This document shows positions 1-9,263 of a stretch of DNA of 9,263 nt, piece after piece. The notes below the pieces were generated by a model. It searched no databases. It had not been told where the DNA came from and saw nothing but the letters and a program-made list of their open reading frames with translations. The position numbers and the translations under genes were made by a program. The DNA lies in the NCBI GenBank assembly GCA_031261145.1, contig JAISJX010000185.1:1-9263 (forward strand), written 5' to 3'. The stretch's first letter is position 1. Every line of letters begins with the position of its first letter. This stretch comes from Tannerella sp. GTDB taxonomy: Bacteria > Bacteroidota > Bacteroidia > Bacteroidales > Tannerellaceae.

Positions 1-987
1 CTGTTTTACCAACTGGACAAAAGCCGAATCTCCATGAAATTCAACCGTACTTTCGGGCACGGTCAAAACATCCTCGACCCGTTTCAGTACAATTTCGGCG
101 TTTGCGCTGTATCCCGCACGGATAAACGACCCTTCGGGAATCGTCACAGCCGCCTTGATCTCAAACTGGATAGCGCCGTTTTTCTCGACTCCCTTCGGCG
201 AAACATACTCTAAAACAGCGTCGAACGTCTGGCTTTCCAACGCGCCGATAGTCAGTTTAATAGGCATCCCTTCATGGATACGGCCAATCTCCGTTTCGTC
301 CACATTGCCCCTGAAAATCATATCGTTCATATTGGCAACCGAGGCGATCGTCGTTCCGTCGTTAAAGTTATTACTCTGAATCACCGAGTTACCTACCTTG
401 ACGGGTATATCTAAAATCATACCGGTGATGGTGCTACGGATTTGGGTCGTACTGGCGACTTTGGAATTTTTCGCTATCCCGTCCCGGATAATTTCCAACG
501 CGCTCTGTGCATTCTCTTTTTCCTCTTTGGCTCTCAGGTAAGCGGCTTTTGACGCCTCCTGTTCTTCGGCCGAAATCACTTTCTGGTTGAACAACTGTTC
601 GTCCCGCTTGAAGACTTCTTCTATCTGCTTCAGGGATATATCGGACAGATTGACGCGCGATTCGGCGCTGTTCAGTTGCACCATTTCGGGAATCACCTTG
701 ATTTTGGCGATAATCTCCCCGCTTGTGACCATCTGTCCGGCTTCCTTCGACAACTCGGAAATAATTCCTGAAATCTGCGGTTTGATAAGGACTTCATATC
801 GCGGTTCCACATTGCCGGTCGCAACGGTTTTGGTTGCCACCGTATCGCGTACCGGGGCTACGACTTCATACATCAACACTACCGGTTGGGCTTTCTTCCA
901 CAAGAAATAAAATGTACCAATCACAACCAACCCGATGATTGATAAAAGGACAGTACGCATGACTTTTTTTACGATTCGATTCTTCAT
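1..987 (-). CDS. HlyD/MacA-type periplasmic adaptor subunit of ABC exporter (3' end outside window)
   Basis: This frame is open from an ATG at 987 down to base 1, giving 329 residues without a stop, so the C-terminus lies outside the window. An N-terminal basic stretch is followed by one hydrophobic segment at about residues 11-29, which would anchor the protein in the inner membrane. Residues 60-100 look like the first half of a lipoyl/biotinyl-like hairpin (GNVEP..., SGIISELSKEAGQMVTSGE), residues about 105-175 are charged and helical like the adaptor coiled coil, and residues 180-310 read as the returning lipoyl half and beta barrel. Proteins of this type bridge MacB-like permeases and a TolC-like outer membrane channel. 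It is the last visible gene of the operon, 23 nt after the second permease; an outer membrane factor gene might follow beyond the window. ATG at 960 (residue 10) is an alternative start, but 987 gives the usual positively charged cytoplasmic tail. Family assignment is confident; the substrate cannot be told. Confidence 0.9.
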   Translation of the reverse strand, partial: MKNRIVKKVMRTVLLSIIGLVVIGTFYFLWKKAQPVVLMYEVVAPVRDTVATKTVATGNVEPRYEVLIKPQISGIISELSKEAGQMVTSGEIIAKIKVIPEMVQLNSAESRVNLSDISLKQIEEVFKRDEQLFNQKVISAEEQEASKAAYLRAKEEKENAQSALEIIRDGIAKNSKVASTTQIRSTITGMILDIPVKVGNSVIQSNNFNDGTTIASVANMNDMIFRGNVDETEIGRIHEGMPIKLTIGALESQTFDAVLEYVSPKGVEKNGAIQFEIKAAVTIPEGSFIRAGYSANAEIVLKRVEDVLTVPESTVEFHGDSAFVQLVKQ

Positions 988-1010
988 GACTCTATTTATT
1001 ATTTTATTTA

Positions 1011-2297
1011 TTACTCTTCACGTATTGCATCAATGGCTTTAATCTGCATCGCACGCCAGGCCGGAATCAATCCAGCTATCAGTCCGCAGATTAGCAGCAC
1101 GATGGTAGCGGCAACGGCCGTCTGAATGCTTACTTCGGGATTCTCAAAGAAAGTCCCGTTCATATCGGATGAGCTACCGACCTTAGCCGCCGCCTGAGCG
1201 ACCAATATCCGGTTGACGCCATCCAGGATAAAGACGCCCAAGCTAAGCCCTATCAGACCGGCAAGCGACGTTAGCACAAGGCTTTCGCTCATCACCTGGG
1301 AAATAATATCCAACGGTTTGGCGCCTAAAGCCCGGCGTACGCCAATCTCTTTGGTGCGTTCTTTCACCGTCACCATCATAATGTTGCTTACGCCGATGAT
1401 TCCGGCAAGCAACGTACCTGTTCCCACCAACCAGATTAAAATATCAAGACCGGTAAACAGTTTCTCGAAAATGGCGAACTGGGCGGCAAGATTTATGATG
1501 TGTACGGCCTGTGGGTCGGCCGGGGCTATCTCGTTTTGCGATTTTAAGATCGTTGTGATCTCGTCGATAACGCTTTGAATCGGAAATTCCTGTTTGGCGC
1601 TTACGGCAAGGAAATGAATAATATCACCCTGGTTAAGTGATTGTTGCATGGTGGTGACAGGTATAAACACCGATTCTATCGATCGTCCGCCGATATTTAT
1701 ATTGGACGATTTGGGGCTTGTAACGCCAACTACCTGATAGTAAATGCCGTTTACGCGGATATATTTTCCGCAGGGATTTTCGTTACGGAAAAGCACTTCG
1801 TCGATTTTCTGACCGATCAAACATACTTTTCGCTTTTCGCGTATATCAATGTCGTTCAACAAACGCCCGTAGAGAAGGTCTTGGGATTCGATATTGAAAT
1901 ATCCGGGCATTACGCCCTTTAAAAAATACGAGCCGGTAATTTGTCCATATACTACATTTTTGTCTCCGCGGCCTCCGAATATGATTGGCGATATATCATC
2001 CACTCCTTTGACGTTTTGGATGATGCTTTCGACGTCGCGGTTGCGCATATTCCAACTGCGTCCTTTGTTAAAACCTTTGTACGGCTGGCTGGTACGGTCG
2101 GCAAAGACAAATATGGAATTGGTGGCGAAACCCTTCAGGTTTCCCATTATGCCGTTTTTCATACCTGCACCCGAACCCAACAGGAGGATCAACATCAGGA
2201 TACCCCAAAAGACACCGAAGCAGGTCAATATGCTGCGCGTTTTATTGCGGGTGATGGTAACCCATATTTCTACCCATCTGTCTGTATCGAATATCAT
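1011..2297 (-). CDS. MacB/FtsX-type ABC exporter permease, second copy
   Basis: The product of 428 aa has the MacB layout: a short cytoplasmic N-terminus, one membrane helix at about residues 21-43, a large periplasmic domain (about 50-280), then three helices near 284-308, 338-360 and 392-413. The signature stretch after the second helix, GVSNIMMVTVKERTKEIGVRRALGAKP (positions 302-328, key residues SNIM, ERTKEIG, RRALGA), is typical of FtsX-domain permeases and contacts the ATPase. The C-terminus, AWRAMQIKAIDAIREE, is the usual family ending. It lacks the nucleotide-binding domain found fused in E. coli MacB, so it depends on the separate ATPase in the same operon. MacB-like permeases couple ATP hydrolysis in the cytoplasm to periplasmic movements. 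It starts 12 nt after the first permease stops and shares the same architecture, so the two may form a heterodimer, though two separate homodimers are possible. Confidence 0.93.
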   Translation of the reverse strand: MIFDTDRWVEIWVTITRNKTRSILTCFGVFWGILMLILLLGSGAGMKNGIMGNLKGFATNSIFVFADRTSQPYKGFNKGRSWNMRNRDVESIIQNVKGVDDISPIIFGGRGDKNVVYGQITGSYFLKGVMPGYFNIESQDLLYGRLLNDIDIREKRKVCLIGQKIDEVLFRNENPCGKYIRVNGIYYQVVGVTSPKSSNINIGGRSIESVFIPVTTMQQSLNQGDIIHFLAVSAKQEFPIQSVIDEITTILKSQNEIAPADPQAVHIINLAAQFAIFEKLFTGLDILIWLVGTGTLLAGIIGVSNIMMVTVKERTKEIGVRRALGAKPLDIISQVMSESLVLTSLAGLIGLSLGVFILDGVNRILVAQAAAKVGSSSDMNGTFFENPEVSIQTAVAATIVLLICGLIAGLIPAWRAMQIKAIDAIREE

Positions 2298-2309
2298 GCT
2301 TTTGTATAT

Positions 2310-3590
2310 TTATTCTGTTCTTATTGCTTCTATCGCCGATATTTTCACCGCTTTACGCGCCGGAAAGTATCCGGCCAGAACGCCTGCGAAGACTAATACC
2401 CCGGTTGCCGAAAGCGCTATACTCAGATTCACCGTGGGATTGCGGAATATCGTCGTATTCGAACCCTGCTCTCCTCCGCTCGACGACGCTCCGGCGCTCG
2501 CCATCTCCATGACAAAATTGACCACTTCGGCAAGCCCAATCCCCATTACCATGCCGATGTATCCGAAAACGCCCGTGACAAGCACCGATTCGATAATAAT
2601 CAACTGCAAGATAGACGAAGGTTTGGCGCCGATGGCTTTCCGGATACCAAACTCTTTGGTGCGTTCGCGTACGGTAATCAACATGATATTACTTACGCCT
2701 ACAATTCCCACTATCAGCGTTCCTATTCCTACTAACCAGATAAACAACGCTATGCTATTATTCATACCCCTCCACATCCGAAATTCCTGTCCCGAATCAT
2801 ACAATCCGACCGGGTTCTTGTCCGCCGGATCAAACTGGTGCCTGCGAGCCATGCGTCCCCTGAAGCGGTCTGTAAACGCTTCCGATTCTTCCTCCGAATT
2901 GATCCCATTCAGCGTAAACTGGATTTCATGGACATGGTATCCGCCGTCAAATAAAGCCTGACCGGTCGTAAATGGGATATAGGCCGATTCATTTGAGTTT
3001 TGCCGTTCGCTATGATAGATTCCGATGACCTGAAACATCAGGTTGCCGATTTTGATATAACTTCCCAACGGCTGGGCGCCGTCATGGAACAATACTTCCA
3101 CCATACGGGGTGTGATCACGATGACTTTTCGCCTCTGTATCATATCCATTTCGTTGATAAAACGTCCGTTACCGGCATGGATAGGCAGGTAAATAATAGA
3201 CGAACAGTCGGGATATACGGCGTCTATGCTGGCCGTCATAAACTCGTGATTATAAGCAAGCGTATCGCTGCGGGAGTTGATTGGCGTAATCAGATCGACT
3301 TCAGGATGTACCCGTTTGATGGCGCGGACGTCTTCTTCGGTAAATTCGATGCGCCGGTTGGGCTGGAATCCTTTGTAAGGCATTGTAGTATAACGTGTCC
3401 AGCAAAATACCGTATTTTCGGCCATGAAACGGAAATTATAGTCGATGCCGTTTTGCAGTCCGTTGCCGGCAGCCAGCAGGACTATCAGCATAAAGATTCC
3501 CCACGCGACCGAGAAGCCGGTAAGAAACGTACGAAGTTTGTTCTTTTTCATCGTACCCCATATCTCGTGGAGGTTATCAAAATCAAACAT
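2310..3590 (-). CDS. MacB/FtsX-type ABC exporter permease, first copy
   Basis: The product of 426 aa has the same plan as its downstream neighbour: membrane helix at about residues 22-42, a periplasmic domain at about 50-275, and helices near 281-305, 332-356 and 390-408. The conserved coupling segment [27 protein letters not shown] lies at 298-324 (key residues SNIM, ERTKEFG, RKAIGA), and the end reads [19 protein letters not shown] Ser/Gly-rich linker at about 365-378 precedes the last helix. Its ATG at 3590 lies 8 bp inside the end of the ATPase gene, suggesting translational coupling and fixed stoichiometry. Sequence differs clearly from the second permease in the periplasmic domain, so this is an old duplication and not a recent tandem copy. 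It is a membrane subunit of an exporter in the inner membrane; the exported compound (peptide, lipid, antibiotic) is unknown. Confidence 0.93.
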
Positions 3591-4272
3591 GACCCGGATT
3601 TTTTTCGATACTTTCTATAAGACCGTCTTTGAGCTTGATAATCCGGTCGGTGACATCAGCTACCGAGGGTTCGTGCGTGACGATAATCATGGTCATGTCT
3701 TCCTCCCGGTTTACACCGCGGAGCAACTCCATCACTTCGACGGTGGTCACGCTGTCCAATGCGCCGGTCGGCTCGTCGGCCAGAATGACCTGCGGCTGGG
3801 CTATCAGCGCACGGGCGATGGCAACACGTTGTTTCTGACCGCCCGACATCTCGTTCGGCATGTGTTCCGCCCATTCTTTCAGGCCGACTTTATCTAAATA
3901 TTCCATCGCCATGATATTCCGTTTTTTCCGGGATATGCCCTGATAATATAAAGGTAGCGCAACATTTTCCACTGCATTCTTAAAAGCAATCAGGTTGAAT
4001 GACTGGAAGATGAATCCGATCATCCGGTTCCGGAGTTCGGCAGCCCGTTTCTCGCTCAGATCCATTATCAACTGGTCATGCAGGTAGTAGGAACCTGTAT
4101 CATACGTATCCAGAATACCTAATATGTTCAATAAGGTACTTTTACCGGAACCCGACGCTCCCATAATGGCAACCATCTCGCCTCTTTCAATATCCAAATC
4201 GATCCCCTTCAATACATGCAAAGGCGCTCCGTTGTCGTAGGTCTTATTGATCCCTTTCAGTTGGATAATCAT
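3583..4272 (-). CDS. ABC exporter ATP-binding protein (MacB/LolD-like)
   Basis: The 229-aa protein carries all motifs of an intact ABC ATPase: Walker A GASGSGKS at residues 38-45, Q-loop Gln90 (FIFQSFNL), signature MSGGQKQR at 142-149, Walker B VILADEP at 162-168 with catalytic Glu167, D-loop ALDS at 171-174, and switch His200 (IIVTHE). Length and motif context are those of the MacB/LolD/FtsE branch that works with FtsX-type permeases. It is the first gene of the exporter operon, and its stop codon overlaps the ATG of the first permease by 8 bp. It would sit on the cytoplasmic face and power a mechanotransmission-type exporter. The leader of about 100 nt holds a hairpin (4296-4330), and the promoter carries a palindrome (4399-4431), so transcription of the whole operon is probably controlled. 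A lipoprotein-releasing (Lol) role is less likely, because a HlyD-type adaptor is in the operon. Confidence 0.95.
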
Positions 4273-4295
4273 CGTTTATTCTTATTATTTTTGTA

Positions 4296-4330
4296 AAGAA
4301 TCCGTTCTATACTTTTTAGACGGGATTCTT
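4296..4330 (-). other. Leader hairpin of the exporter operon
   Basis: An inverted repeat AAGAATCC / GGATTCTT has 8-bp perfect arms at 4296-4303 and 4323-4330. Further pairing inside (TCTA/TAGA across a 2x2 internal loop) leaves a 7-nt loop. On the minus strand it falls in the predicted leader, ending about 23 nt before the ATPase ATG. No strong U tract follows on the minus strand. A T-rich tract (CTGTTTTTGTT) follows on the plus strand, but no plus-strand gene ends there. It could affect mRNA stability or translation; function is not shown. Confidence 0.5.
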
Positions 4331-4384
4331 CTGTTTTTGTTACACCAATTTACGCTAAAAAATTCTATTTTCTCTTTTTTGCAG

Positions 4385-4415
4385 CAAATATAGCCGTTAT
4401 TATGATACCATGCAA
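4385..4415 (-). promoter_or_regulatory. Bacteroidetes-type promoter of the exporter operon
   Basis: Read on the minus strand, TATATTTG (4392-4385) fits the Bacteroidetes -7 consensus TAnnTTTG. A TTG (4415-4413) stands 20 nt upstream as the -33 element. Transcription would start near 4375-4380, giving a leader of about 100 nt before the ATPase start at 4272. No better match is present between 4273 and 4496. Confidence 0.65.
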
Positions 4416-4431
4416 CACATAGTACCATAAT
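4399..4431. promoter_or_regulatory. 33-bp palindromic operator candidate over the -33 element
   Basis: The arms ATTATGATAC (4399-4408) and GTACCATAAT (4422-4431) are inverted repeats with 9 of 10 matches. Symmetry continues inward (CATG... against ...CATA), so that only wobble-type mismatches break a 33-bp dyad. Its centre, base 4415, lies on the -33 TTG of the exporter promoter. A dimeric repressor bound here would block RNA polymerase. It also lies downstream of the glycosidase gene, so a weak terminator is an alternative, but no T run follows. Confidence 0.55.
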
Positions 4432-4496
4432 TTTACATATTTAACATCCTTCGATGAGAAAACAACCTGCGGATAGAATGCAAAATAGCTGTAACA

Positions 4497-5600
4497 TTAT
4501 TGCTTCGGCAAGCGTATTATTTCACTTCCGGCCAATAAATAAGCGCCTGTTCCATAGACTTCCCAGCTATCTTCGCTGAAGTTTTTACGCGGGTCGGCGC
4601 CGATAGGTTGCACCCATCCGACACGTCCTTCTTCGTTCACGCACTTATTCAGGGCAATCCACGCTTTTTCCACCGCCGGGCGATACGTCGTAGCGTCTAA
4701 CAATCCTGCATTAATCCCCCAGGTCAGTGCGTAGCAGAAAAAGCCTGAACCGCTGACTTCGCCGCCCGGATATGATTCGGGATCGAGCAAACTGGCTCGC
4801 CACAAACCGTCTTCCTGTTGCAACGAGAGGATACGGGCAGCCATTTCCCTGTACAGTTGTTCGTAGAAAGGCCGTTCGGGATAATCCGCCGGAAGTTCTT
4901 TCAGGACGCGAACCAATCCGCCCATAACCCAACCGTTACCGCGCGACCAGAAAATACGTTGTCCATTCGCCTCATAACGGTCGGCGGAATCGTTCTTGAT
5001 CACGTAATTGAGATCTCTTGCGAAAAGATGTTCTTCCCTGTTGTATAAAAGATCGTAACATTCTTTGTAACAGGTATCACTATAAGCCAGATAAGCCTTG
5101 TTCCCGGTTGTTACTCCCATTTTCACCAAGGTTGGCGGCCCCATAAACAGCGCGTCGCACCACCACCATTTGATCACTTCAATCCCCCTGACCGGATAGG
5201 GCGTCGGGATGAATTTATCCAGCGTATCAATGGTCGCCCGGAGCATTTCCGGTTTCCGCTCAATACGGTAAAGGTCGATATAGGTCTGGCAGATAGCGAT
5301 ATCGTCGGCGTGATACCAGCGGCGGTACGGACGCCAATGCGTGGAATCGTTTCCCATCGCCATCATCGCGTCGTAGAGCGGCTGCGATTGGGTCGTTTCC
5401 CATGCGGCGAAAATACCGGCATAGAAAGCGCCGTTTGTCCAGTCGTTCTGGACATGATTAGGGTGCGCCAACTGCCATCCGGCCGTTTTGACCATCGTGG
5501 ATTGGATATACTCCGGCGCGAAAACATCCGTCGCCTGGTTCTTATTCCCGGAAGTGCAAGCCGTTAAGGCTAAAAGAATGAGGGGTAAAATTTGTTTCAT
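4497..5600 (-). CDS. Lipoprotein glycoside hydrolase, GH88/GH105 type (unsaturated glycuronyl/rhamnogalacturonyl hydrolase)
   Basis: The 367-aa product begins with a lipoprotein signal, MKQILPLILLALTAC, with a lipobox LTAC and lipidation at Cys15. The rest has the look of the (alpha/alpha)6-barrel family of YteR/YesR: NDWTNGAFYAG at 52-62, HADDIAICQTYIDLY at 97-111, WWWCDALFMGPP at 145-156, FWSRGNGWVMGGL at 217-229 and SGSGFFCYALTWGINAGLL at 283-301. Asp149 in the WCDALFM motif corresponds to the catalytic Asp of YteR (Asp143 there). Family enzymes hydrate the 4,5-double bond of unsaturated galacturonyl or glucuronyl residues left by polysaccharide lyases, freeing the terminal sugar; rhamnogalacturonan I fragments are the classic substrate. 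Length is normal. It would sit on the periplasmic or outer-membrane face. It follows the sorting-domain protein by 3 nt and is probably translationally coupled. No SusC/SusD or lyase gene is visible, so this is not a complete polysaccharide utilisation locus. Confidence 0.85.
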   Translation of the reverse strand: MKQILPLILLALTACTSGNKNQATDVFAPEYIQSTMVKTAGWQLAHPNHVQNDWTNGAFYAGIFAAWETTQSQPLYDAMMAMGNDSTHWRPYRRWYHADDIAICQTYIDLYRIERKPEMLRATIDTLDKFIPTPYPVRGIEVIKWWWCDALFMGPPTLVKMGVTTGNKAYLAYSDTCYKECYDLLYNREEHLFARDLNYVIKNDSADRYEANGQRIFWSRGNGWVMGGLVRVLKELPADYPERPFYEQLYREMAARILSLQQEDGLWRASLLDPESYPGGEVSGSGFFCYALTWGINAGLLDATTYRPAVEKAWIALNKCVNEEGRVGWVQPIGADPRKNFSEDSWEVYGTGAYLLAGSEIIRLPKQ

Positions 5601-5603
5601 AGT

Positions 5604-5924
5604 TTATCGGATTATTATTTTACGAACAGTTTCTTTAATGCGGACAATGTAATATCCTTTCGGGAGAGCGGCGATGTAGTCATCGGTCGATTGTTTAATT
5701 TCAAATTCCTTCACCTTGCTTCCGAGGATATTATAGATTTCTATTTTACTTTTGACGGGGGCGTTGGCGACAGTGATACGATTATCGACGACCGTCACTT
5801 TCAGCGCAGTATCGACCGGTTGTGTGAACATTCCGGGCGAACGCTCCACGTTCTGAGCCTGCGCCGAAACAGCCAGCAAGCCCATACAACCTGATAATAC
5901 CACTATCCATACCACTTTCTTCAT
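5604..5924 (-). CDS. Small secreted protein consisting of a T9SS type A-like C-terminal sorting domain
   Basis: The 106-aa protein has an N-terminal signal peptide (MKKVVWIVVL... ending near SAQA at residues 20-23, cleavage before QN). The rest is a short linker and a beta-rich domain at about residues 40-106 with the pattern of T9SS type A sorting domains: VVDNRITV, then IEIYNILGSKVKEFEI, then LPKGYYIVRI, ending in KIIIR. In the T9SS such domains sit at the C-terminus of large cargo proteins and direct them through the outer membrane, where they are normally cut off. Here almost no cargo precedes the domain. It may be a remnant of a larger gene, a small independent protein that uses the fold, or an accessory protein. 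It is the first gene of a two-gene unit with the GH105-type hydrolase, 3 nt apart. Confident as a gene; domain identity is by pattern only. Confidence 0.78.
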   Translation of the reverse strand: MKKVVWIVVLSGCMGLLAVSAQAQNVERSPGMFTQPVDTALKVTVVDNRITVANAPVKSKIEIYNILGSKVKEFEIKQSTDDYIAALPKGYYIVRIKETVRKIIIR

Positions 5925-5967
5925 TCGCTCTTTTTAATTTCAGTTTACGTTTTCCTCTTTTGATCCG

Positions 5968-5998
5968 CAAAAGTACAAACTATTTTCGTATAATACAC
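5968..5998 (-). promoter_or_regulatory. Proximal promoter candidate of the sorting-domain/GH105 operon
   Basis: On the minus strand TACTTTTG (5975-5968) matches TAnnTTTG. The triplet 20 nt upstream (5998-5996) reads GTG instead of TTG, so the -33 element is imperfect. A start near 5960 would give a leader of about 36 nt before the ATG at 5924. Confidence 0.4.
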
Positions 5999-6021
5999 AG
6001 GAAAATACCTTTTTCGTATCT

Positions 6022-6050
6022 CCCGGCCTTTCCTTTTTTATCAAACCGGG
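6022..6050 (-). other. GC-rich inverted repeat in the leader region
   Basis: CCCGG (6022-6026) and CCGGG (6046-6050) are perfect inverted arms around a pyrimidine-rich loop on the plus strand. An alternative pairing uses neighbouring GGCC blocks. If the distal promoter at 6077-6107 is used, this forms a hairpin in the leader of the minus-strand operon. The role is unknown. Confidence 0.3.
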
Positions 6051-6076
6051 CCGATTTACCGGTGGAAAACAGGAAA

Positions 6077-6107
6077 CAAAGATAGTCAGAAACCTCATCT
6101 TTTTCAA
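6077..6107 (-). promoter_or_regulatory. Distal promoter candidate of the sorting-domain/GH105 operon
   Basis: On the minus strand TATCTTTG (6084-6077) matches TAnnTTTG exactly, and TTG (6107-6105) lies 20 nt upstream, the same spacing as in the exporter promoter. Transcription would start near 6070, giving a leader of about 145 nt that includes the GC-rich inverted repeat and the proximal promoter. Confidence 0.5.
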
Positions 6108-6238
6108 CTTCCGGCGGATTATTTTTCAAAAAACAGTGTTATTTATTCAGAATCCGGTTCAATCCATCGGTCTTCGCCTTTTCGGTTGCATCGAAACAGG
6201 GCAAAGACAGTTCTTTTTTAACATCTAAAATGATTTTA

Positions 6239-6263
6239 TGCCTACATTTATAATTTATAGGCA
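6239..6263. promoter_or_regulatory. 25-bp dyad upstream of the membrane AraC-type regulator
   Basis: Perfect 6-bp arms TGCCTA and TAGGCA enclose a 13-nt AT-only-but-one core. The dyad lies about 33 bp upstream of the -7 element of the regulator gene, a position where an activator or repressor could bind. It is short enough to be chance. Confidence 0.3.
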
Positions 6264-6295
6264 GGCTCTATTTCTATTTTCCCGATAATTTAGTT

Positions 6296-6303
6296 TATCT
6301 TTG
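6296..6303 (+). promoter_or_regulatory. -7 element of the regulator gene promoter
   Basis: TATCTTTG matches TAnnTTTG and lies 24 nt before the ATG at 6328. No TTG stands 19-21 nt upstream (the nearest is TTC at 6272-6274), so the promoter is probably weak or needs an activator. The transcript would have a leader of under 20 nt. Confidence 0.45.
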
Positions 6304-6327
6304 CAGCAAATTAACTGACTGAAAAAT

Positions 6328-8124
6328 ATGCGTCTGATGAATAAATTTCTTATCATCCTTTGCCTCTTCGCAACCCTGCTTGCGATGTCTTTGTCTGCAC
6401 AGAACAGCGAAGACGGCAACCTGCTATCGGAAGAATGGCGCCGGTCACTGCTGGACAAACCCTACGCGGAAGCAAGGGACAGCCTGAGCAATTTCTTAAA
6501 CAGAATCGAAGCAGCACACTATTCCGAAGAACAGGAAACCGCCGCATGGAACAGCCTGAAAGACTATGCCGTCCGGCACCGGGACAAAAGGCTGGAGCAG
6601 ATTGTCGATTTTTATTTCATCCACATTTACAGGTATAAATACGCTCATCCCAACGGGAAGAAAACCATCGAACTTTATCTTGAGCTGGCAGACCGGGCGA
6701 AGAAAATCCGGCATGTCGAGATGCAGATTACCTGCCTTCACTCACTGGCAGACCGGTATTTCGAGTCGGAGAACTATGAGGCGGGCTTCGCTGTTTACAA
6801 GGAAATCGAGCCTTTGCTCGAAAGCCTCGCCGACGAGGCATACCCCGGCAAAGTGGATGTCTATTATGCAATGGGGCGCATCTTTTACCAGTTCAGGGAA
6901 TACGAAACGGCCGTCGTTCATCTGACAAATGCCATCCGTCTGCCTGCCTCCCCAAGACACAGCCGCGTCCGCGCCAATGCCTTGAATACGCTGGGGCTTT
7001 GTTATGACAGCATGAACCTGCCCGACAGCGCCGAAGCCTGCTTCCGAACGGTTATCGACGAAGAAACACGGCATGCCGGCGCCGAATCGGCAAAGGCCAT
7101 GAAAACATGGAGTTTTATTGCGAAAAAGAACCTGGCGGACATCCGCATCAAACGCGGCGAGTACGAAAATACCATCGAAACCTATCGCGCGGTCATTGAG
7201 TTCATGTCAACGATTCGCAACGAGCAGGGTTTCACCCTCGGCACACAAATCGCCCTGGCCATCGCCCAAATAAAGCAGGGAAACGCTGCCGGGGCAAAGA
7301 CCCTGTTCGACACCTGCCTGAAGCGCGAAAACATAGACGGCAACCACCTGGCCGGATGGTACGAAGCCAAAGCGCGCTATTACACCGGCACCGAACAGCA
7401 CGCTCAGGCTGCGATCTACAAGGATTCGCTCCTGCTGGCGCGACAGGCGCACAACGACAGGTTCAATGCCATGCACCTGCTGAGAATCGAACAGCATCAG
7501 AACGCCCTGAACATGCAACGGAAAAACGAGCAACTGGCCCAATCGGAGGGATGGACGCAGAAATTCCGCAACTACCTCTGTCTGGCGCTCGCCGGATGCT
7601 TCCTGCTGGCCGTCACGCTGGGAATATGGATACACCGCAACCGCCGGATTGCAAAGAAAAACCGCTCCCTCTACCGGCAGATACAGGATCTGACGCAAAA
7701 GGAAAAGGTCGCGGAACAGCAACTGCTCGACGCCCCCGAAGAAGAACTCAGCCGCACCATGCAACTCTTCCGGAACCTGAGCGAACTCATGCAGAAGGAA
7801 AAACCCTTCACCGACCCCGACCTGAAGCGGAAAAAACTGGCCGACCGCCTCCATACCAACGAGACCTACCTCGCCGACGCCATCCGCGAAGCAACGGGCG
7901 AGACCTTCTCGGCCTACCTTTCCGGTCTGCGCCTGCAATATACCCTCGAACTCCTGAACGAACATCCCGGCATGGCCATCGACGCCGTAGCCCTCGACTC
8001 CGGACACGGCTCCTACGTATCCTTCTTCCGCTCATTTACGAAGAAATACGGCGTCACGCCCTCGGAGTACCGCAGGATAGCCGCCTCAAAAAAGAAAACA
8101 CTCTCCGCCCGGCCCACGCTGTAA
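6328..8124 (+). CDS. Membrane-anchored TPR / AraC-type one-component transcriptional regulator
   Basis: The 598-aa product has four parts. A signal-like N-terminus (residues 1-24, ending SLSA before QN) is followed by an all-helical TPR-like region at about 40-400, with recognisable repeats around CLHSLADRYFESENYEAGFAVY (136-157), YYAMGRIFYQFREYETAVVHL (179-199) and ALNTLGLCYDSMNLPDSAEACF (218-239). One membrane helix lies at about 415-435 (YLCLALAGCFLLAVTLGIWI), followed by basic residues and a coiled-coil-like linker (440-490). The C-terminal AraC-type domain (about 495-585) has two helix-turn-helix units, KLADRLHTNETYLADAIREATG and VALDSGHGSYVSFFRSFTKKYGVTPSEYRR (residues 553-582). The topology puts the TPR part in the periplasm and the DNA-binding part in the cytoplasm, so it could pass an envelope signal directly to DNA without phosphorylation. 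No kinase or receiver domain is present. ATG at 6337 (residue 4) is an alternative start. It probably acts on the repeat-bearing promoter just downstream. Confidence 0.87.
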   Translation: MRLMNKFLIILCLFATLLAMSLSAQNSEDGNLLSEEWRRSLLDKPYAEARDSLSNFLNRIEAAHYSEEQETAAWNSLKDYAVRHRDKRLEQIVDFYFIHIYRYKYAHPNGKKTIELYLELADRAKKIRHVEMQITCLHSLADRYFESENYEAGFAVYKEIEPLLESLADEAYPGKVDVYYAMGRIFYQFREYETAVVHLTNAIRLPASPRHSRVRANALNTLGLCYDSMNLPDSAEACFRTVIDEETRHAGAESAKAMKTWSFIAKKNLADIRIKRGEYENTIETYRAVIEFMSTIRNEQGFTLGTQIALAIAQIKQGNAAGAKTLFDTCLKRENIDGNHLAGWYEAKARYYTGTEQHAQAAIYKDSLLLARQAHNDRFNAMHLLRIEQHQNALNMQRKNEQLAQSEGWTQKFRNYLCLALAGCFLLAVTLGIWIHRNRRIAKKNRSLYRQIQDLTQKEKVAEQQLLDAPEEELSRTMQLFRNLSELMQKEKPFTDPDLKRKKLADRLHTNETYLADAIREATGETFSAYLSGLRLQYTLELLNEHPGMAIDAVALDSGHGSYVSFFRSFTKKYGVTPSEYRRIAASKKKTLSARPTL

Positions 8125-8151
8125 CTGTCATAAGCACTCCCAAACCGGGCG
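8106..8151 (+). terminator. Weak hairpin terminator candidate after the regulator gene
   Basis: Perfect 7-bp GC arms CGCCCGG (8106-8112) and CCGGGCG (8145-8151) flank 32 nt that include the stop codon. Only TTTCT follows, so the T tract is poor. It may be a terminator or just attenuate read-through into the next genes. Confidence 0.3.
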
Positions 8152-8185
8152 TTTCTACACACTGATATTCAGCCGCCGGCAAAAG

Positions 8186-8223
8186 TTTTTCTGATTTGAA
8201 AGATTTTTTTTCTGATTTGAAAG
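8186..8223 (+). repeat. Direct repeat pair, 21-bp period: AraC-type operator candidate
   Basis: TTTTTCTGATTTGAAAG occurs at 8186-8202 and again at 8207-8223, identical over 17 bp, with start-to-start distance 21 bp, two turns of the DNA helix. The next two bases (AT against GT) differ by one. The downstream copy ends 21 nt before the -7 element at 8245-8252, so it covers the place where a -33 box should be. This is the expected geometry for a class II AraC-family activator (compare the 21-bp spaced araI half-sites). Confidence 0.65.
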
Positions 8224-8244
8224 GTCTTCTTTGGGACGCCGGAA

Positions 8245-8252
8245 TACATTTG
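8245..8252 (+). promoter_or_regulatory. -7 element of the GIY-YIG-like/lipoprotein unit
   Basis: TACATTTG matches TAnnTTTG and lies 25 nt before the ATG at 8278. The position 20 nt upstream reads AGG (8222-8224) instead of TTG, so the promoter lacks a -33 element. The direct repeats reach exactly to this place, which points to activator dependence. Confidence 0.55.
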
Positions 8253-8277
8253 CGGCATGTTTTAAACAATCAGGCAA

Positions 8278-8571
8278 ATGAACGGAAGTTTTTCAAACAC
8301 AACCTCGGCCCCCTGCTGGACCTATATCCTGCACGACGGCTCAAAGATGGAATATCAGGTAGGATACACCATGAACCTCCACGAACGGATGCAGCAGATG
8401 AACGCTTGCAAGGGTAAGCTGGTCTATCTGCGCATGTTCGACGATTTCATCGTAGCCATCGGGCACAAACTGTTCCTCGAACAAATATCAACCCCCTCGC
8501 TCCGGCGCATTGTCCGGATGCACAATCCGGGAATGAAAGACCTCCGGGAAACCCAATCATTGAATCATTGA
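8278..8571 (+). CDS. Small GIY-YIG/URI-like domain protein
   Basis: The 97-aa product lines up by eye with single-domain GIY-YIG (URI, UPF0213/YhbQ-like) proteins. WTYILHDGS (14-22) corresponds to the GIY strand with Tyr16; EYQVGYTMNLHERMQQMN (25-42) corresponds to the YIG strand and following helix with Tyr26, Gly29 and Arg37. LVYLRMFDDFIVAIGHKLFLEQI (48-70) supplies Glu68 as the likely metal ligand, and NPGMKDL (83-89) resembles the frequent C-terminal NPxWxDL of the family. The His often seen after the Arg helix is replaced by Gln-Met, so nuclease activity is uncertain. Length is normal for the family. ATG at 8278 is preceded by AGG 4 nt upstream and follows the promoter by 25 nt. It lies 34 nt before the lipoprotein gene and is probably co-transcribed with it. 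The cellular role of such small proteins is poorly known. Confidence 0.72.
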   Translation: MNGSFSNTTSAPCWTYILHDGSKMEYQVGYTMNLHERMQQMNACKGKLVYLRMFDDFIVAIGHKLFLEQISTPSLRRIVRMHNPGMKDLRETQSLNH

Positions 8572-8597
8572 ATTATTAAATTATTAATCATTAAATA
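8555..8597 (+). repeat. Tandem AT-rich 8-bp repeats at the gene junction
   Basis: AATCATTG occurs twice in tandem (8555-8570), then AATTATTA twice (8571-8586), then ATCATTAAAT. The first pair forms the last codons of the GIY-YIG-like gene, including its TGA stop, and the rest fills the short spacer before the lipoprotein ATG at 8606. Such units can slip during replication; here a change in number would alter the C-terminus or the spacer length. Confidence 0.6.
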
Positions 8598-8605
8598 GTA
8601 ATAAT

Positions 8606-9193
8606 ATGCGCAGTAAATTAAATCAATTAGTAACAGTCTTCCTGCTTTGTTCGGGGAGCATCCTGTGGGCGTCGTGCGACAAGATCAAAGACGCTGCATC
8701 GAAAGACGTGGTGGTGAAATCCATCAAGGTAAACATTGACGACGTCACGGTCGGTTCCGTACTGAGGGCCGGGCTGAGGGCCGGGAGCGAAGAGCCGCAG
8801 CTCAGCTCTTTCAGCGCCTCGCGGACGCTGAAGTTCAGCGAACTGGAAGGCATGTCGGACGACATCAAAAAGTATGACCCCTCTCATTTTAAAGTAATCA
8901 GCGTCGGGGAGTCGTCGCTGGTCGTCACTCCGGTGGAAGGTCACGGCACGGTGGTGAAGAATTTCTCGATTGTCGCCGGAACGCTGTCGTACAACGTCGC
9001 GTCATACACCTTCGGCGATACTTATTCCGATAGCGGATTGGTGCTGTTCACCTTCGAGCTGCTGGAGCAAATCCGGAAGGCCAAGGACGGCGTACTTGTC
9101 ACCGTGAAGGGTGAAACGGATGTGCCAGACGGCGAACACGTGAACGTCAAGCTCACGCTGAACAACGTTACATTTAATATATCGCTCTTCTGA
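8606..9193 (+). CDS. Lipoprotein of unknown family
   Basis: I do not recognise the family. The 195-aa product starts with a hydrophobic signal (residues 8-22) and a lipobox-like WASC, with lipidation expected at Cys24, followed by DKIKDAASKD. The mature part is polar and rich in predicted beta strands: VVVKSIKVNIDDVTV (34-48), LKFSELEG, FKVISVGESSLVVTPVEG, NFSIVAGTLSYNVASYTFG, GVLVTVKGETDVP and HVNVKLTLNNVTFNISLF at the very end. This suggests one or two Ig-like or similar beta-sandwich domains exposed on the cell envelope. An RAG-LRAG duplication near residues 54-60 comes from a 12-bp tandem repeat. It is the second gene after the candidate AraC-type promoter and ends just before a strong hairpin. 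It may be an output of the membrane regulator. No enzymatic motif is visible. Confidence 0.8.
   Translation: MRSKLNQLVTVFLLCSGSILWASCDKIKDAASKDVVVKSIKVNIDDVTVGSVLRAGLRAGSEEPQLSSFSASRTLKFSELEGMSDDIKKYDPSHFKVISVGESSLVVTPVEGHGTVVKNFSIVAGTLSYNVASYTFGDTYSDSGLVLFTFELLEQIRKAKDGVLVTVKGETDVPDGEHVNVKLTLNNVTFNISLF
8762..8785 (+). repeat. 12-bp tandem duplication inside the lipoprotein gene
   Basis: CTGAGGGCCGGG occurs twice without gap (8762-8773, 8774-8785), in frame, and encodes Leu-Arg-Ala-Gly twice. The copies are identical at DNA level, so the duplication is probably recent; loss or gain of a unit would keep the frame. Confidence 0.8.
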
Positions 9194-9213
9194 AGCCGGG
9201 AAACGGGGAAACC

Positions 9214-9243
9214 GCAGGGACGTTGCACGCAGCGCGTCCCTGC
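9214..9243 (+). terminator. Strong stem-loop after the lipoprotein gene
   Basis: GCAGGGACG (9214-9222) and CGTCCCTGC (9235-9243) are perfect 9-bp inverted arms with a 12-nt loop, starting 20 nt after the stop codon. The downstream bases (ACCCACTTACATTTATT) hold no clean T run, so it may be a terminator, an mRNA 3' stabilising stem, or both. Confidence 0.5.
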
Positions 9244-9263
9244 ACCCACTTACATTTATTAAT

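Follow-up and report, generated by a model that had tools for sequence, protein, structure and literature searches.

Direct repeats with a 21-bp period as the very probable landing site of a membrane-spanning TPR-AraC regulator encoded next door in Tannerella sp.

The DNA considered here, referred to as the window, is a stretch of 9,263 nucleotides from Tannerella sp. (contig JAISJX010000185.1, positions 1 to 9,263 of the forward strand). On the minus strand at 1-4272, the translations point to a MacA/MacB-like efflux set, i.e., a membrane-fusion protein, two permeases and an ATPase, after which come a GH88 gene (4497-5600) and, on the minus strand, an ORF for a secreted-looking protein of 106 aa consisting mostly of a T9SS sorting tail (TIGR04183; 5604-5924). 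On the plus strand follow a regulator gene (6328-8124), preceded by a TAnnTTTG -7 box (6296-6303) that probably belongs to the promoter of the regulator gene itself, a pair of direct repeats, namely R1, the distal half-site (8186-8202), and R2, the proximal half-site (8207-8223), a further -7 box (8245-8252), and two genes encoding a small protein of 97 aa (8278-8571) and a protein of 195 aa (8606-9193), the latter a probable lipoprotein as judged from its N-terminus.

R1 lies 61 bp from the stop codon of the regulator gene. Both repeats read TTTTTCTGATTTGAAAG, are identical at 17/17 positions and start 21 bp apart, in a 17-4-17 layout. An earlier note on this DNA had claimed identical 17-bp copies at this period, and the exact pair was indeed found and is unique in the window, where TTTTTCTGATTTGAAAG at up to three mismatches has two matches, R1 and R2 only, for 0.03 expected; the same scan (up to three mismatches) gave no half-site copy near the regulator's own -7 box. 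Dinucleotide shuffling of the window (500 times) and of the intergenic region 8125-8277 (20,000 times) never yielded an exact 17-mer repeat within 60 bp, and a chance origin of the pair is excluded by the mismatch scan together with both shuffle sets. R2 abuts or overlaps the -33 position, and the -7 box TACATTTG, a perfect TAnnTTTG, stands 21 bp from its end and 38 nt from its start. Bacteroides promoters carry TAnnTTTG at -7 and TTTG near -33 (PMC7366714). Over 8101-8300 on the plus strand, TACATTTG is the sole TAnnTTTG, and TTTG occurs at 8195, 8216, 8230 and 8249. With a usual -33 to -7 spacing of about 19-21 nt, a -33 box is absent at ordinary spacing because the TTTG at 8216, inside R2, and the one at 8230 stand 25 and 11 nt from the TA, respectively; the description of this promoter as a perfect -7 without a -33 is thus borne out.

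The regulator is a protein of 598 aa for which Pfam and a structure model (mean pLDDT 86.7, pTM 0.61) delineate a TPR part, a membrane helix and an AraC-type HTH part. The AraC-type domain claimed for the gene directly upstream is present, residues 504-583 (7837-8076; HTH1 and HTH2, by Pfam and covariation) matching PF12833 (E 1.5e-17) and PF00165 (E 4.8e-8), both above cut-off; this two-HTH domain places the protein in the AraC/XylS family, and a PDB sequence match was obtained with GadX (E 1.5e-5). The N-terminus forms a hydrophobic signal or transmembrane helix, followed in the model by a TPR solenoid (residues 35-354) and by one continuous helix (residues 358-468) joining TPR to HTH, within which a transmembrane stretch is read from the sequence at about residues 416-435. 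The N-terminal helix and the membrane stretch suggest a periplasmic sensor, the periplasm being the most likely location of the TPR part, and no description of such a TPR-membrane-AraC architecture was found in the literature searches made.

The likeness to RRNPP, Rap and NprR proteins lies in a TPR solenoid set on a regulatory output; RRNPP proteins are cytoplasmic, whereas the window regulator has an N-terminal helix and a membrane stretch. RNPP_C (19.2 bits, cut-off 26.5) and AimR (21.1 bits, cut-off 70) both remain below cut-off, and while Foldseek matched the TPR part to RapH (E 8e-5) and NprR (E 4e-4), generic TPR proteins such as LGN scored as high or higher, so that a reading of the TPR domain as an RRNPP peptide sensor was not adopted. 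No histidine kinase or receiver domain appeared in the Pfam scan, where only TPR and HTH were above cut-off, and because kinase and receiver are absent the regulator is not a hybrid two-component system (HTCS). Predicted motifs of the Bacteroides HTCS are direct repeats at an average distance of 21 bp (PMC3878776), and the likeness accordingly extends from a membrane sensor and an AraC-type domain in one chain to 21-bp direct repeats; the differences are the missing kinase and receiver, the TPR solenoid as sensor, and the usual target, which here is not a polysaccharide locus but a unit of a pseudo-GIY-YIG protein and a surface protein. In the same paper (PMC3878776), SusR-type regulators are comparable as one-component factors that sense in the periplasm and bind DNA in the cytoplasm; the DNA-binding domain of SusR is described there as lacking significant similarity to that of any other known regulator, whereas that of the window regulator is AraC-type.

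For the small protein encoded at 8278-8571, the fold model shows a GIY-YIG fold resembling UPF0213, with Pfam matches below cut-off and a best Foldseek match at E 2.7e-3, none being at or below 0.001. The catalytic Glu of the second helix is replaced by Lys (K64 here) in 13/13 family members, window included, and the same column holds Glu in 7/7 rows from weaker matches (two rows identical). Missing, too, is a stretch of about 9-13 residues with a conserved His. The small-protein family differs on these two counts, the Lys and the lost His stretch, from the GIY-YIG nucleases UPF0213/YhbQ and Slx1, and the model points to a GIY-YIG-fold protein that would be nuclease-dead. Among 385 genomes sampled over the class, the small protein was found in 3 at 1e-8, all already known, and is narrow in range in that only those 3 matched. 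At locus L121 (8847-9320, minus strand), a decayed and an intact pseudo-GIY-YIG copy stand in tandem, and no site can be recognised with them.

With the window protein alone as query, 0/17 candidate stretches were confirmed, and a regulator profile then gave 8 loci. Among named relatives, the nearest are Bacteroidales MAGs carrying the labels Prevotellaceae, Tannerellaceae, Bacteroidales and Tannerella, whose isolate codes resemble those of what we take to be a published termite-gut set. More regulators came from searching whole genomes, namely 123 in the family of G004, 393 in an even sample of the order, 12 in the family of G392 and 150 in a family sample around G001. The main scan for sites covered 4 kb on each side of 36 regulators, i.e., 280 kb on both strands, some contigs stopping inside the 4 kb, at periods 14-43 and with a threshold of at least 14/17 identity between copies plus a -7 of at least 5/6. 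L008 was excluded as too distant, the site scans leave aside L021-L033, which are weaker AraC-type matches (E 3e-13 to 9e-6), and L006 and L007, outside the main scan, were scanned together with L121 and L126 as a held-out set (at least 13/17, periods 20-22).

In the main scan, period 21 gave 17 matches, period 22 gave 8 and any other period at most 3. The 17 period-21 matches comprise 12 sites discussed here, three reverse-strand echoes and two unrelated matches, and pairs of 12-14/17 preceding the small gene or the first downstream gene were also counted (L002, L003, first regulator of L053, L054, L068). On this basis the site is present at 17/36 regulators: at 11/11, window included, of those whose C-terminal identity is 49% or more and whose neighbourhood is intact, and at 6/24 of the more distant ones. 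Another 18 regulators of the main set, at 30-43% C-terminal identity to the window, have no countable pair, and the overall tally amounts to 19/40 regulators with a site, 20 without a countable pair and one (L062) cut by the contig end. At the main-scan threshold, no accepted pair was seen at L057-L061, L069-L072, L081, L083, L084 and both regulators of L085, the match at L070 having been judged unrelated. Also left uncounted were L067, with a 22-bp period, L107/L108, where the small gene follows a decayed copy with no pair, and L062, whose pair is as in L004 but cut before the -7. L066, with a 32-bp period upstream of the regulator, was not counted either; its half-site-like pair (oriented 76-150) stands before a TAGCTTTG box, 32 bp being 21 plus about one helical turn. 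A further uncounted case is L086, where three half-site-like copies at a 21-bp period lie in the divergent promoter of a distant regulator, upstream of its gene and on the minus strand near oriented position 3506.

In the held-out set, L007 (Prevotella) has two pairs resembling TTTTTCGTGTGGAGTAC, at about 8908 and 5595 on the strand divergent from the regulator, and L121 has one resembling TTGCCGAAGTTTGACAC, 285 bp behind the regulator; their copies agree at 14-16/17, and the -7, at a distance of exactly 38 from R2, is perfect in each case. L006 and L126 gave no pair, no match occurred at periods 20 or 22 in the held-out set, and the other period-21 match of L121 is a simple-sequence repeat. 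At L007 (5540-5600 and 8850-8910, minus strand), the picture is one of two promoters with near-identical pairs. L088 and L126 have only weak homologues of the small gene, the site being unclear in the former and negative in the latter; at L126 and L110, an inverted repeat, TTTGTCCAAC...GTTGGACAAA, precedes the weak small protein and the 21-bp tests are negative, the repeat of L126 lying ahead of a -7, between the regulator and the weak homologue.

Among the relatives, L002-L005 carry 21-bp-period pairs resembling TTTTTCTGAATCnACAA directly behind the regulator, with copies 13-17/17 identical and TTTTTCTGAATCAACAA as the L004-type half-site. The pair is kept at L054 with the target gene 4.7 kb away, and at L068 with the target divergent. 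At L001, whose regulator is 74% identical in its C-terminal part, TTTTTCTGATTTAGAAG and TTTTTCTGATTTGGAAG lie 2.3 kb from the regulator, and the intervening insert (574-2851), as read from the sequence, holds an ATPase-like gene and a toxin-antitoxin-like pair. There, 22 bp of the regulator end (537-558) recur beyond the ATPase gene at 2029-2050, which is likely a trace of the insertion. When registered on the -7, 22 sites align gap-free as TTTTYCnGATTTGnnAn-4 bp-TTTTYCnGATTTGnnAn-21 bp-TAnnTTTG, i.e., as a direct 21-bp pair at a fixed distance from the core promoter, the distance of 38 from R2 to the -7 being the one under this registration and free fits giving 34-39, depending on where the 17-mer starts. 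Over the copies of these sites, T1 is conserved at 43/44, T11 at 41/44 and A16 at 43/44; within a locus the copies agree at 12-17/17, and between loci the letters differ. The 22 sites are not all independent, since three (second regulator of L053, L120, L122) are near copies of one another. The comparison of orthologous loci that the earlier note had proposed as a check therefore came out in its favour, relatives with both the regulator and a homologue of 8278-8571 keeping the pair, its period of 21 and its distance to the -7.

These alignments bear on the idea that the repeats are no protein site at all, being either an RNA element or the scar of a recombination or tandem duplication. Perfect copies can come from local duplication, and the L001 insertion did duplicate 22 bp nearby; a scar, however, fits poorly with copies that stay alike yet change between loci at fixed spacing, and, as for RNA, no Rfam match reached the gathering score and the pair, being upstream of the -7 box, would not be transcribed from that promoter. 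Such an origin is considered extremely unlikely.

What follows the site is in most cases the same small gene: a homologue of 8278-8571 is the first gene at 16/22 sites and the second at 2/22, there behind a 168-aa outer-membrane-like protein. No homologue is present at 4/22 sites (L003, L005, second regulator of L053, L063), none was found in L007, and the L121 site precedes a 926-aa secreted-looking protein. Regarding the two-gene unit put forward as target in the earlier note, its first gene hence recurs and its second does not: 8606-9193, with a weak cohesin-like match below cut-off, had no homologue but itself among 249 candidates, and as a conserved target it was dropped. At that place the gene varies, from the lipoprotein of the window to OmpA (L082), a GH127 protein (L064), secreted proteins that have either a beta-helix or a T9SS tail matching at, or slightly below, cut-off (L053, L054, L120, L122), a DUF3298 protein further on (L056) and a 782-aa protein without family (L087); on sequence alone it resembles recR in L065 and a sigma-factor gene in L124/L125. 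HU-related DNA-binding genes occur in or near the unit at L063 (9224-9679, TIGR01201) and, by resemblance only, at L087 (5056-5451). In the literature searches made, no description of a pseudo-nuclease as target of such a regulator was found.

The converse search started from small genes found by profile, the site not being used as a criterion. Six further strong small genes (E at or below 2e-21) had the pair at 5/6, with copies of 13-17/17 and, at 38-39, a -7 scoring 5/6 or better, the sixth (L107) lying behind a decayed copy, and the strong small genes beside the regulators of L053, L054 and L068 had it at 3/3. The pair was found at 0/13 weak matches (E 7e-7 to 9e-5), mostly ordinary GIY-YIG genes, and not at the L110 small gene (E 1.6e-9). 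At L104 a 22-bp period outscored 21 (15/17 vs 13/17), and at L100 periods 22 and 33 tied with 21. Among the five orphan-type sites, four had no regulator in the fetched flanks, and the regulator of the fifth is more than 10 kb away. Genome-wide, TTYCAGATTTGAGAGG paired at the spacing of the site matched three times in G077 at up to three mismatches, i.e., at its own regulator and at two orphan small genes (reversed control, 0). In six other genomes, a degenerate paired motif derived from the sites already known there gave a single match, at the known site, in five (control, 0), and 0 matches in G002, whose own site is too divergent.

Half-site letters were compared with regulator HTHs in the 17 regulators having their own site, by permutation tests that ignore phylogeny. 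HTH1 distance correlates with the 5' nine half-site positions (r 0.53, p 0.0014; vs 0.10, p 0.18, for the 3' eight) and HTH2 distance with the 3' eight (r 0.39, p 0.0006; vs 0.17, p 0.13, for the 5' nine). Once the other HTH is controlled, the matching partial correlations are 0.53 for HTH1 and the 5' part (p 0.001) and 0.40 for HTH2 and the 3' part (p 0.0004), the crossed ones being -0.14 for HTH1 and the 3' part and -0.17 for HTH2 and the 5' part. The membrane/linker segment, which is not expected to read DNA and served as a control, shows weak correlations, at r 0.22 (p 0.02) for the 3' part and r 0.29 (p 0.06) for the 5' part, which implies some shared descent in the data; with this segment controlled, HTH2 vs the 3' part is at 0.33 (p 0.002). 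In these sequences the pattern is that of a double dissociation, HTH1 divergence tracking the 5' part of the half-site and HTH2 divergence its 3' part. At the level of single residues, residue 563 (Y563 in the window, codon 8014-8016), where the recognition helix of HTH2 begins, covaries with position 17 of the half-site: it is Arg in 5/17 regulators, exactly those having C at R2 position 17 (MI z 7.6, higher than for any other scored column pair; exact p 1.6e-4, uncorrected). In the held-out set, L007 and L121 share Arg563, and every one of their half-site copies ends in C, so that Arg563 goes with C17 in 7/7 regulators, two of them held out; L006 has Arg at 563 and no site. This link may stem from few events.

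Because relatives keep the layout while the letters of the repeats and the DNA-reading parts of the regulator change together, the pair very probably serves as the binding site of the membrane-spanning regulator whose gene lies alongside, and the local circuit suggested in the earlier note gains support from both the conserved layout and the half-site/HTH covariation. The site could instead be read by a different AraC-type protein, either a paralogue or a hybrid two-component system, the neighbouring regulator being incidental. Orphan sites without a nearby regulator do exist, extra AraC-type genes lie next door in L002, L005, L060, L061 and L067, and HTCS also have predicted 21-bp direct-repeat sites (PMC3878776); yet the letters of the half-site vary with the adjacent regulator's HTHs, domain by domain, and the degenerate motif occurs once, at the regulator's locus, in 5/6 genomes and not in the sixth, which makes this assignment very improbable.

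Comparison with a well-known system helps in placing the site assigned to the adjacent regulator. At araI1-I2 of E. coli araBAD, AraC binds two 17-bp direct half-sites with a 4-bp gap and a 21-bp period, the proximal half-site overlapping the -35 by a few bp and the AraC DNA-binding domains lying head-to-tail. The window pair has the same 17-4-17 direct layout; AraC, however, is a soluble protein whose own N-terminal domain senses arabinose, whereas the window regulator has a TPR sensor connected via a membrane helix, and the promoter here belongs to the Bacteroidota -7 type. From sequence evidence, we infer DNA binding as well as activation rather than repression, i.e., R1/R2 would be the head-to-tail operator of the regulator 6328-8124, activating the target only when the regulator is active, with a probability of about 0.88. 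A TPR sensor, most likely periplasmic, would signal through the long transmembrane and coiled-coil helix to the cytoplasmic AraC-type domain, and two such domains would sit side by side on R1 and R2, each half-site being read by HTH1 over its upstream stretch (TTTTYCnGA) and by HTH2 over the stretch nearer the promoter (TTTGnnAn). The subunit on R2 would be placed against RNA polymerase at the -33 position, the proximal copy replacing the -33 element, so that the promoter would fire only with the active regulator. The target here would be the putatively nuclease-dead GIY-YIG-fold protein 8278-8571 together with a variable gene for a secreted protein or lipoprotein. The same regulator might alternatively act as a repressor, a dimer over the -33 blocking RNA polymerase until a signal releases it. 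The site abuts the core promoter, a repressor would need a site here too, and conservation and covariation fit binding of either sign; but under repression a -33 box would usually be retained, whereas none exists at normal spacing, and the aligned sites hold their half-sites in constant phase with the -7, as contact with polymerase would predict. Repression is therefore held to be unlikely. The mode of DNA recognition is of a known kind; within the literature searched, the regulator architecture, the private circuits and the pseudo-nuclease target look new.

The two ends of the regulator appear to have separate histories. Compared with the window protein, P0002-P0005 are 37-40% identical in the N-terminal and 69-73% in the C-terminal part, P0006 and P0010 are 38-40% and 23-32% identical, respectively, and P0007-P0009, P0011 and P0012 are only 11-18% identical in the N-terminal part and 62-76% in the C-terminal part. 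Such split identities, with different relatives for each module, would point to recombination of TPR sensors with a TM-AraC output, and no description of sensor swapping in such regulators was found in the literature searches made. A wider reading, which is put forward tentatively and has somewhat less than an even chance of being right, is that of a modular one-component family in which TPR sensors are swapped onto a common TM-AraC output, coevolving half-sites make insulated private circuits, and many members drive a nuclease-dead GIY-YIG protein as a non-enzymatic partner. Were it true, this partner might, for example, feed back on the regulator, or handle the mRNA or the export of the co-produced variable surface protein.

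For the TPR-AraC regulators of gut Bacteroidota, the analysis provides a predicted DNA site and a residue-to-base lead (563 vs position 17), and the regulons of these membrane-spanning regulators would be predictable from the site. Paralogues sharing one layout with different half-sites would constitute a natural set for the study of AraC-domain specificity and for orthogonal promoters. Finally, the findings point to a GIY-YIG-fold family devoid of the catalytic Glu, under dedicated control and often encoded beside surface proteins.
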